NCBI GenBank assembly: GCA_001803165.1
Contig: MHAZ01000011.1
Span: 62,001 to 126,000, forward strand
Reading direction: 5' to 3'
Length of the DNA stretch: 64,000 nucleotides
Source: Stygiobacter sp. RIFOXYC2_FULL_38_25
GTDB taxonomy: Bacteria; Bacteroidota; Ignavibacteria; Ignavibacteriales; Melioribacteraceae
In this document: piece by piece, positions 35,116 through 37,576 of the stretch
Layout of the letters: each line of letters opens with the position of its first letter
Numbering within the stretch: position 1 is the first letter of the stretch
Made by a program: the position numbers and the translations under genes
Notes under the pieces: generated by a model
Databases searched by the model: none
Told to the model about the DNA's origin: nothing
The model's input: only the letters and a program-made list of their open reading frames with translations

Positions 35116-35409
35116 ATGCAATGTGCCAACTGCAAAATGGATTTGAATGAAGATAAAAACATAAAGGGTTTTTATACTCAGCAGAATCCTCACTTCGGCA
35201 GAGCGTACCGGCAGTCCGGCTATGTTTGCGGAAACTGCGGATACCACAATACTCTATTTCACATTCCAATTAGAATTCCATTCATTAGAACAATGGCAGA
35301 GTATGAAAAGCTTGATTCGCTTGTAAAAGAGTTTAGTGAAAAAGCAATTGAGTTCTTAAAGAGCCATCAGAAAAATAAAAACCAGCAAGAATTGTTTGAG
35401 GAAACATGA
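35116..35409 (+). CDS. Zinc-ribbon protein
   Basis: 97 residues with CANCKMDL and CGNCGYHN pairs, one zinc-ribbon. C-terminal helix. Overlaps the MuF-like gene by four bases (ATGA). Not recognised further. Confidence 0.65.
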   Translation: MQCANCKMDLNEDKNIKGFYTQQNPHFGRAYRQSGYVCGNCGYHNTLFHIPIRIPFIRTMAEYEKLDSLVKEFSEKAIEFLKSHQKNKNQQELFEET

Positions 35410-36134
35410 ACGAGTTTGTTAGCATGATAGAGCGGATTAAGGAAGATGCAAGAACGCTTTTGCAAAATGATTCATTGAAGTTAAAGCGTGCAATAATACG
35501 CGAAATAGATTATCTGTGGCATGCTTACAGCAAGCAATATGATTTTGGTAACATTGAAAAGTTCGCAGATTATATTTTTAATTTCTTAAAGATACCCGCC
35601 GTAAACCGGAATGAAATACTGAAAGATTTAAGAGAAGCGCAGTTGCAAATTGGAACTGTATGGGATGAGTACTTTAAGGCAAGTGTTGGCGAAAAATACA
35701 AAGCAATCGATTATGAAAAAATTCTTGCCGTGCATAGTGTGGATTTTCCCGCCATCCAAAAAAATACACGCGATTTGGTGGTAAAAACATTTAGGGAGTC
35801 CGTAAGAAAGAATTACAGCTTTGAGACCATACGTGCAGAGTTGCAAAAAGGCAATGTTGGAACACATGAAGCATTTACTCTATCCAGTACCGGGATGGCG
35901 CAATATGCGAACGCAACTATGTTTGAATACGCTAGGCAAGCTGGATTAAATAAGTTCTTATATAACAGAATTGGAAGCCTTACAGAAAACAGCCGCCCAT
36001 TTTGTGTAGTTCACCACAAAAAAATATTTACTTATGAGCAAATATTAACATTAGATAACGGTCAGGGCTTGAGTGTTCTTACTTCTTGCGGCGGATACCT
36101 CTGCAAGGATTTTTGGTCTGTTATAGTTGATTAG
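35406..36134 (+). CDS. MuF-like minor head protein
   Basis: 242 residues. The C-terminal part has TENSRPFCVVHHKKIFTYEQI, DNGQG and TSCGGYLCKDFWSV, the pattern of the MuF/SPP1 gp7-type head morphogenesis family (C..R..F/H with a C-terminal Cys-H/D). N-terminus is helical. Acts in the portal/capsid vertex. Its place is unusual: on the plus strand, 3 kb from the other head genes, which lie on the minus strand. Confidence 0.75.
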   Translation: MNEFVSMIERIKEDARTLLQNDSLKLKRAIIREIDYLWHAYSKQYDFGNIEKFADYIFNFLKIPAVNRNEILKDLREAQLQIGTVWDEYFKASVGEKYKAIDYEKILAVHSVDFPAIQKNTRDLVVKTFRESVRKNYSFETIRAELQKGNVGTHEAFTLSSTGMAQYANATMFEYARQAGLNKFLYNRIGSLTENSRPFCVVHHKKIFTYEQILTLDNGQGLSVLTSCGGYLCKDFWSVIVD

Positions 36135-36142
36135 GAGAAAAC

Positions 36143-37093
36143 ATGGAAAAGAGACTACAGTTTATTTGGATATTTATGTTGTTGTTGATTAGACAATATA
36201 CTATTCAGAAAACATCTAAGTATGCTGGTGTATCTTACCGCAAGGCACGTAAAAAGTGGTGCGCAAATATTTACTATGATGGCAAACAACAATGGGTAGG
36301 ATATTTTGAAAAAGAAATAGACGCTGCGAAAGCTTACGATAAAGTTATGGCATATTACAACGCGGATGTACACAAAATGAATTTTGCAATCGATTTAGCA
36401 GAGGCACCTAATAATATAAGACGAAGAATTCGAGTAGCCGGTAAAATAAAAAGAAAAGCTTCCTCTATATATCTGGGAGTGCATTATTCGGATAGACTTC
36501 ATAAATGGAAAGCCGAAATCAGTCACAATAAACAATGCATTCATATCGGGTTTTTTAATTCAGAAACTGAAGCTGCCTCTGCATACGATAAAGTTGCTCG
36601 ATATTATCATGGGGAAAATGCTGTTACTAACTTTGAAGGACATCATAGCGCACCAGCGAGCTTTATAAAGTTAGAAAGGCACCCGGTTACATCACATTAC
36701 AGAGGTGTGTGCAGACATAAAAATATATGGCTGGCTCAAATTAAAGTGCATCGCAAAAGAGTGTGGAGCAGAGAATACAAAACTGAAGTTGAAGCAGCTG
36801 AAGGCTATGACAGAGCGGCTCGCTACTATCATGGTGAAAAAGCCCAGACAAATTTTAGTGGAACAGCAATACTCTCTCACGTAGAAATCCGGAAAGAAAA
36901 GTGTCCTTCAACTTCTTCATACAAGGGTGTTAGTTATTGTAAAAGGGACAAACGCTGGATCGCCCAAATAAAATTAAATGGTAAAACGAAATATTTGGGT
37001 TACTACAAGATGGAACTTGAAGCCGCGCTTGCATACAATGCTGAAGCCGCAAAACTTGGGAGACCGTTGAATATTATTAAAGGAGTTGCGTGA
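36143..37093 (+). CDS. Four-AP2-domain protein
   Basis: 316 residues with four tandem AP2/ERF-type DNA-binding domains at about 25-82, 107-165, 184-239 and 258-305. Each has the pattern SxYxGV..K..W.A.I...K...GxF..E.EAA.AYD..A..YHG..A..NF. The usual HNH nuclease of phage AP2 proteins is absent. A short hydrophobic N-terminus (FIWIFMLLLI) precedes domain 1; GGAG before the ATG supports this start. It probably binds DNA; whether it regulates, or is the remnant of a homing protein, is open. Confidence 0.85.
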   Translation: MEKRLQFIWIFMLLLIRQYTIQKTSKYAGVSYRKARKKWCANIYYDGKQQWVGYFEKEIDAAKAYDKVMAYYNADVHKMNFAIDLAEAPNNIRRRIRVAGKIKRKASSIYLGVHYSDRLHKWKAEISHNKQCIHIGFFNSETEAASAYDKVARYYHGENAVTNFEGHHSAPASFIKLERHPVTSHYRGVCRHKNIWLAQIKVHRKRVWSREYKTEVEAAEGYDRAARYYHGEKAQTNFSGTAILSHVEIRKEKCPSTSSYKGVSYCKRDKRWIAQIKLNGKTKYLGYYKMELEAALAYNAEAAKLGRPLNIIKGVA

Positions 37094-37284
37094 TGGTACT
37101 AAGTGATAACGATACAAAAGAGTTCTACGAAAAATTCGAATGGCTTAGAGATATACTAGCACTTATGCAAACCGCTTTCAAGGAAGGCGATAAGCAAGCT
37201 TTAATTTCAGTTGAGTCGGTTACAGAATGCAATAAGACAATTGCTGAAATTACCCAAATTATTTATGACGATAACGAGTTGTAA
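37093..37284 (+). CDS. Small phage protein
   Basis: 63 residues; ATG overlaps the AP2 stop (TGATG). Helical: NDTKEFYEKFEWLRDILALM. Not recognised. Confidence 0.6.
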   Translation: MVLSDNDTKEFYEKFEWLRDILALMQTAFKEGDKQALISVESVTECNKTIAEITQIIYDDNEL

Positions 37285-37285
37285 A

Positions 37286-37576
37286 ATGGTAGCGGACAGC
37301 CAATTAAAAACCGGAAGGCTTTATTTTTGCGAAGTGATAAAAGCATCCCGTCCATGTTTTGGGAAAGAATTTGTTGTAAAGTTCACGGGCATTGCTTTCC
37401 GGAATATCAATTATGATACTGAAAGAGTGTTTGATTTTATTGATGATGACAGAGAAGCGGTTAGAAAAAGATTGAAGGAAAGAAACGGGAGCAACAAACC
37501 GGATGCAATATTTATGCTGGACGAGATTAAGATATACAGAGAAGCACAGCCGGAATTATTTAACGCTAATAATTAG
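37286..37576 (+). CDS. Small phage protein
   Basis: 96 residues from ATG at 37286, right after the previous stop. Beta-rich start MVADSQLKTGRLYFCEVI, helical end. Not recognised. Confidence 0.6.
   Translation: MVADSQLKTGRLYFCEVIKASRPCFGKEFVVKFTGIAFRNINYDTERVFDFIDDDREAVRKRLKERNGSNKPDAIFMLDEIKIYREAQPELFNANN

Follow-up and report, generated by a model that had tools for sequence, protein, structure and literature searches.

We found that a Mu-like prophage carries an intact gene for a protein of four tandem AP2 domains in which a nuclease domain is not detectable. The observation is confirmed and, within the loci examined, unusual. The reading we favour, at a probability of about one half, is that the protein is a domesticated DNA-binding array from homing enzymes, carried as a cargo gene, that would act by binding DNA and likely as a regulator. 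The window (the whole stretch of 64,000 nucleotides analysed here) is part of contig C11 of a 4.4-Mb genome, and the gene and its parts lie in it as follows.

36143 to 37093, plus strand: four-AP2 gene, protein P0001, 316 aa (ORF; four Pfam AP2 matches).
36133 to 36137, plus strand: AGGAG, a likely ribosome-binding site that overlaps the upstream gene's stop codon (read in the sequence).
36143 to 36205, plus strand: leader, residues 1–21, a short hydrophobic helix (predicted at 2–19) where HNH-AP2 proteins have their nuclease (AlphaFold, sequence).
36206 to 36391, plus strand: AP2 domain 1, residues about 22–83 (Pfam, genome search, AlphaFold).
36452 to 36640, plus strand: AP2 domain 2, residues about 104–166, nearest to ordinary AP2 (profile score, AlphaFold, structure match).
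36686 to 36862, plus strand: AP2 domain 3, residues about 182–240, LG turn lost (profile search, alignment, AlphaFold).
36905 to 37069, plus strand: AP2 domain 4, residues about 255–309, C-terminal end shortened (profile search, alignment, AlphaFold).

The open reading frame at 36143–37093, first described in a sequence-only reading of this DNA, proved to be a single intact gene on the plus strand. When the bases of the region were shuffled 1000 times, no open frame of such length arose in the forward frames, and no trace of truncation from a longer gene was seen. The AGGAG stands 5 bases 5′ of the ATG and the TGA shares one base with the ATG of the following gene (37093..37284), the stop and start signals interlocking with both neighbours in a tightly spaced operon. 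GC at the three codon positions is 0.45, 0.38 and 0.31, and the overall value of 0.38 equals that of the part of the operon preceding the gene. The encoded protein is basic (pI 9.8).

Four stretches of the protein matched Pfam AP2 (PF00847; E 1.3e-25, 89.9 bits; cut-off 33.3), in agreement with the sequence-only reading of four tandem AP2 domains and no nuclease; the check it had proposed, an HMM search for AP2 and HNH, returned four AP2 domains and zero HNH in this protein. Up to E 10, the sole other Pfam line was Tox-GHH (E 0.12), under its own cut-off and taken as chance; no HNH family and no Mor/C domain was found in the protein at that threshold, nor any Mor/C domain among the region's 43 ORFs at E 0.001. 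Scored singly in a search of the own genome, the domains reached 35.6, 30.6, 30.6 and 23.0 bits, one of the four above the cut-off, and no other AP2 was found in that genome at E ≤ 1.

The predicted structure agrees with this architecture. AlphaFold, with an input alignment of 24 rows, produced four beta-beta-beta-helix modules (strands and helix at residues 30–55 and 58–73, 113–138 and 141–159, 189–212 and 215–233, 263–288 and 291–304), with a mean pLDDT of 81.3 and cores of about 84–97 in ten-residue blocks. Structure prediction had also been proposed as a check, and in the model each of the four domains is a canonical AP2 module. Linkers fell below a pLDDT of 50 and the global pTM was 0.33, as expected for a beads-on-a-string build. 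Compared with Foldseek and VIA-align, domain 2 superposed on TEM1 (Z 11.2, 60 residues, 1.4 Å) and on DNA-bound AtERF1 (1gcc; Z 9.6, 60 residues, 2.0 Å). Domains 1–2 matched the tandem AP2 of WRINKLED1 over 131 residues (Z 11.0) with an rmsd of 16.7 Å, so this protein superposes domain by domain only. The top predicted-structure matches for the protein were giant-virus AP2/HNH proteins (Klosneuvirus KNV1, Fadolivirus, Barrevirus), whose 340–408 alignment columns probably reflect several AP2 domains, at low TM-scores (about 0.2 of query); these belong to protist viruses, and two of the three are named HNH.

Judged by profile and alignment, the four domains appear to be genuine but divergent AP2 domains. 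With an AP2 model that excluded the four-AP2 protein, domains 1–4 scored 63, 82, 65 and 70 bits. Among 180 one-AP2 domains, the set on which the model had been trained, these scores lie at the 3rd, 23rd, 3rd and 7th percentile. The claim that conserved positions are intact thus stands in part. In an alignment with AtERF1, the core positions G-V, A-x-I, A-A and Tyr agree in all four domains; the low scores, the lost LG turn of domain 3 and the shortened C-terminus of domain 4 speak against it. Residues R147, E160, R162, R170 and W172 of AtERF1, which we take to be base contacts, correspond in domains 1/2/3/4 to A/L/R/K, N/E/Q/Q, Y/S/K/K, Q/C/R/T and W/H/W/Y, respectively. These differences suggest four AP2 modules with different readout.

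Such divergence might also mark a functionless homing remnant that lost its nuclease and whose AP2 part is drifting. The HNN-AP2 genes of Xanthomonas phages degenerate after spread, some to AP2 pieces (PMC2248197, in excerpt), and the low AP2 scores and altered domains 3 and 4 fit such a fate. Yet the frame is open over 316 aa, all four domains are predicted to be well folded, a ribosome-binding site and interlocked stop and start are present, and decay alone would not yield four domains. We regard a decaying remnant as quite unlikely.

The closest AP2 domains point to the ancestry of our favoured DNA-binding array. HNH-AP2 homing endonucleases (also HNN-AP2 or "IPA-HNH") have the same AP2 domain, and the nearest foreign domains, from HNH-AP2-type ORFs, are 50–57% identical to those described here, which argues for descent from a homing enzyme. 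As a rule, however, these enzymes combine one AP2 with HNH, against four and zero here. The PHROGs families named "HNH endonuclease" match the protein via their AP2 part. The four domains are mutually 34–49% identical (local alignments, 43–59 columns), which is not above the values for some foreign AP2 domains, and a recent internal duplication is unsupported. In a largely unresolved domain tree of 95 rows and 61 columns, the four fell into two groups, and the AU test for one clade gave p = 0.246, a result compatible with one origin or with several.

To place the architecture among other AP2 proteins, we collected loci with patterns taken from AP2 domains, both of the four-AP2 protein and of a few others, the locus scans using the best 80 of 163, the best 80 of 99 and the best 80 of 94 relatives. 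Among 220 distinct AP2 ORFs in the fetched loci (excluding loci L007–L017, and with an AP2 model seeded partly with the four-AP2 protein's domains), 192 had one AP2 domain, 27 had two and a single one, the protein described here, had four. Arrays hidden by recoded stops, an idea prompted by TAG codons in a locus with one AP2 (L276), were rejected by reading through all stops: the 286 loci, which overlap in part, gave 213 single, 65 double, no triple and eight fourfold runs, and all eight fourfold runs were overlapping copies of the four-AP2 gene itself rather than distinct proteins. Planctomycetota made up most of the best 80 of 99 loci from the genome-contig scan; in the loci L097–L175, Phycisphaerae and Sedimentisphaerales were rich in HNH-AP2-type genes, with several per genome.

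The statement that AP2 normally travels with HNH held in this sample. HNH_3 was found in 141 of 149 one-AP2 ORFs, these being drawn from 180 non-redundant ones of at least 80 aa (the longest and the 30 shortest omitted, two shorter ORFs having been dropped earlier). By contrast, all 13 non-redundant two-AP2 ORFs comprised four with HNH_3, one with GIY-YIG and eight with neither, the eight forming one broad family by alignment and therefore being non-independent. In these loci, having more than one AP2 domain is thus associated with nuclease loss.

The search for relatives of the whole gene was negative at every level. None was found in 79 family genomes, two of which carry single HNH-AP2-type genes (HNH read by eye), and 395 phylum genomes gave no match beyond the own genome at E 1e-8. 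Neither plasmids nor IMG/VR, in a single-protein search, yielded a relative of the whole gene; phages gave partial matches only, in 11 phage records, and among 30 genomes from other phyla, to which the loci had led, 4 had a match at E 1e-15, in no case longer than two domains. In the two family relatives, the HNH-AP2 gene (L002:1222-1686, L003:1228-1692) lies directly 3′ of a long ATPase-like gene, of the same kind in both, with overlapping stop and start.

HNH-fused relatives, with a frameshift in the present gene, had been named as the finding that would overturn the sequence-only reading; no fused relative turned up in the genomes, plasmids, phages and IMG/VR searched. Read by eye, the three frames of 36100–36340 held no HNH, and the upstream gene ends nine bases 5′ of the ATG, which also counts against a truncated HNH-AP2 gene. 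With no HNH in the upstream frames and no fused relative found, we rejected a frameshifted or truncated gene of this kind.

By gene content, about 27–59 kb of the window looks like a Mu-like prophage, these ends being approximate. Pfam matches in the region's 43 ORFs include DDE_2, rve and Mu-transpos_C (transposase), an AAA domain, DUF3164, GemA and the Mu portal. The description of the surroundings as a middle-gene operon is fair by position alone: the gene is 3′ of transposase, ATPase and GemA and 5′ of convergent head genes. We compared its immediate neighbourhood with related elements, including L013 (G000:C4), a diverged second Mu-like prophage of the own genome that is syntenic with that of the window.

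35406 to 36134, plus strand: upstream flanking gene, 242 aa (relatives in L013, L285, L286, L011, L012).
37093 to 37284, plus strand: downstream gene, its ATG overlapping the AP2-gene TGA, with a counterpart in L013 (42% over 60 aa; ORF, comparison).
37286 to 37576, plus strand: 96-aa gene flanking the place downstream, conserved and used as its marker (relatives in L013, G017, L285, L286).
Copies of the upstream-flank gene by sequence comparison: window 35406-36134; L013:9509-10282; L011:9656-10396; L012:3345-4292.

The upstream flank (35406–36134) had zero PHROGs matches and no Pfam match above cut-off. Its C-terminal end is, we presume, like phage MuF/SPP1 gp7-type head proteins, and a C-terminal FCxxH ... 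NGQGLxV ... GGYxC recurs in the upstream-flank gene of several Mu-like elements.

The relatives that could be compared were three loci from two lineages in which both flanks are present (L013, L285, L286) and a fourth, L282, that has the downstream flank. In L013, the upstream flank is 32% and the downstream flank 61% identical; in the two IMG/VR phages L285 and L286, the downstream flank is about 60% identical, and the gene set of L286 is nearly that of L013. G017 (L282) has the downstream flank only, at 44–46% identity. L011 and L012 share only the upstream flank, followed by host cell-division genes (L011) or a head gene (L012), and are uninformative on the place.

Between the flanks, L013, L285 and L286 each have three small ORFs, and L282 has four 5′ of the downstream flank. 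The ten small ORFs at the place in L013, L285 and L282 gave zero AP2 and zero HNH matches; among them, L013 and L285 each have an HTH_39 winged helix, whereas the HTH matches of L282 are weak. DNA of L285 and L286 is 93% and 98% identical on the two sides, and identity breaks across the first ORF 3′ of the upstream flank, where the two phages carry different genes (L285:4261-4534; L286:4255-4531). This single-gene swap marks the place, on these comparisons, as a hot spot of gene exchange. L013 also has the two small downstream genes in another order than the window. Since relatives carry other genes at the place, the four-AP2 gene is accessory cargo of the Mu-like prophage, and since syntenic relatives lack it, it is not a needed regulator of this phage type. 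A conserved middle/late activator of the phage type was rejected because L013, L285, L286 and L282 have no AP2 at the place.

A cargo gene might also serve in counter-defence or against competitors, with the array covering restriction or defence sites or repressing a rival mobile element. The swap of single genes between near-identical phages is cargo-like, and the 43 ORFs of the region match, among other families, Lar (restriction alleviation) and the ArdC N-terminus (ORF assignment by reading). The repressor CapR, which is related to the T5orf172-type DNA-binding domain and represses ICP1 capsid genes, is a printed precedent (PMC10448857, in excerpt). The operon itself provided no such target: its repeats were short two-copy ones only, among which no repeated target site stood out. 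We consider this function unlikely.

Alternatively, the array could be a DNA-binding partner in trans that directs a separate nuclease or the phage transposition machinery. Mu transposase families are present in the phage, and ICP1 has split HNH and AP2 genes (gp115/gp116), although the authors read them as a frameshifted, inactive gene (PMC10448857, same excerpts). Against such a partnership, there are zero HNH families among the region's 43 ORFs at E 0.001, and related phages manage without the four-AP2 gene. It seems very improbable to us.

We therefore return to the homing-derived array. Its ancestor would be an HNH-AP2 homing endonuclease that lost the nuclease. The four independently folded AP2 modules, joined by flexible linkers and presumably differing in specificity, would jointly read an extended DNA site, and the bound protein could repress or activate transcription in the early/middle phase of the phage. 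That it acts by occupying DNA is suggested by its being basic and nuclease-free, by its early operon and by the predicted DNA-binding genes at the place in relatives. Counting against a regulator array, three of the four domains lie at the 3rd–7th percentile, no repeated target site stood out in the operon, and promoter-like sites, in a promoter/terminator scan, were no commoner than in shuffles. The sequence-only reading had offered an array-type regulator or a derived homing protein; the two would be compatible, and the best reading is a protein regulator-like in action and homing-derived in ancestry.

AP2 domains of homing enzymes reused without a nuclease are already known, and the four-AP2 protein would be a variant of these. 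The excerpts covered by our literature search contained no such AP2 array in a bacterial phage. Like this protein, ApiAP2 and plant AP2 factors (PfSIP2, WRINKLED1) have AP2 without a nuclease, and in ApiAP2 factors the number of AP2 domains ranges from one to four (PMC6631176, in excerpt). However, these factors are eukaryotic, have further functional regions and have demonstrated regulation, whereas that by the phage protein is proposed. T5orf172 homing enzymes have repeated DNA-binding domains arranged as beads on a string, and excerpts of PMC10448857 draw a parallel from CapR to AP2 factors. The likeness to our protein lies in bead-like DNA-binding modules and in a binding part reused as a repressor; the T5orf172/CapR domains are zinc-finger domains unrelated to AP2, and the enzymes retain the T5orf172 nuclease.

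Plant AP2 factors are thought to descend from bacterial or phage homing enzymes (as cited in PMC10448857, in excerpt). It is possible, and we put it forward tentatively, that a phage independently made a multi-AP2 regulator from a homing enzyme minus its nuclease, by multiplying or collecting the DNA-binding domain into four non-redundant readers. If true, a phage would show here the step that has been put forward to explain how plant and apicomplexan AP2 factors arose. Nuclease-free intermediates between homing enzymes and AP2 factors are scarce, and this is a compact bacterial case with four modules that may offer a natural modular DNA reader. Together with nuclease-degenerate two-AP2 phage proteins, it allows the path from a selfish nuclease to a regulator to be tested.

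Such two-AP2 proteins form a family in staphylococcal phages, whose members have a degenerate HNH-like N-terminus followed by the AP2 pair (L004:2746-3519, L005:2752-3537, L021, L038, L081 and L180–L254). They resemble the four-AP2 protein (about 36% identity over 142 aa) in their tandem AP2, the absence of HNH by Pfam and their early/replication region. They differ in adjoining XRE and DnaD-type genes, in having two AP2 domains and in the degenerate N-terminus, in place of which the four-AP2 protein has just the 21-aa leader before domain 1. One member, gp48_45 of Staphylococcus epidermidis phage vB_SepS_48, is annotated "putative transcription factor". It has matches in 39 phage records, and in 24 of these the match spans at least 80% of its length. 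Annotations within the family are inconsistent, with "AP2 domain-containing protein", "HNH endonuclease" and hypothetical also in use.

Across 52 pairs from 16 distinct sequences of this family, dN/dS had a median of 0.37 (range 0.08–0.51), pairs with dS outside 0.03–1.2 or with fewer than 15 differences being dropped. By these ratios the family is under purifying selection, which indicates that such AP2 proteins can persist without a nuclease. It is widespread and a tractable model in laboratory phages. One of the records, OR842880.1 (L005), is named "Xanthomonas phage SU1" and tagged "XccPhieta", genus Rockefellervirus; its genes and proteins are staphylococcal-like, a possible mislabelling.
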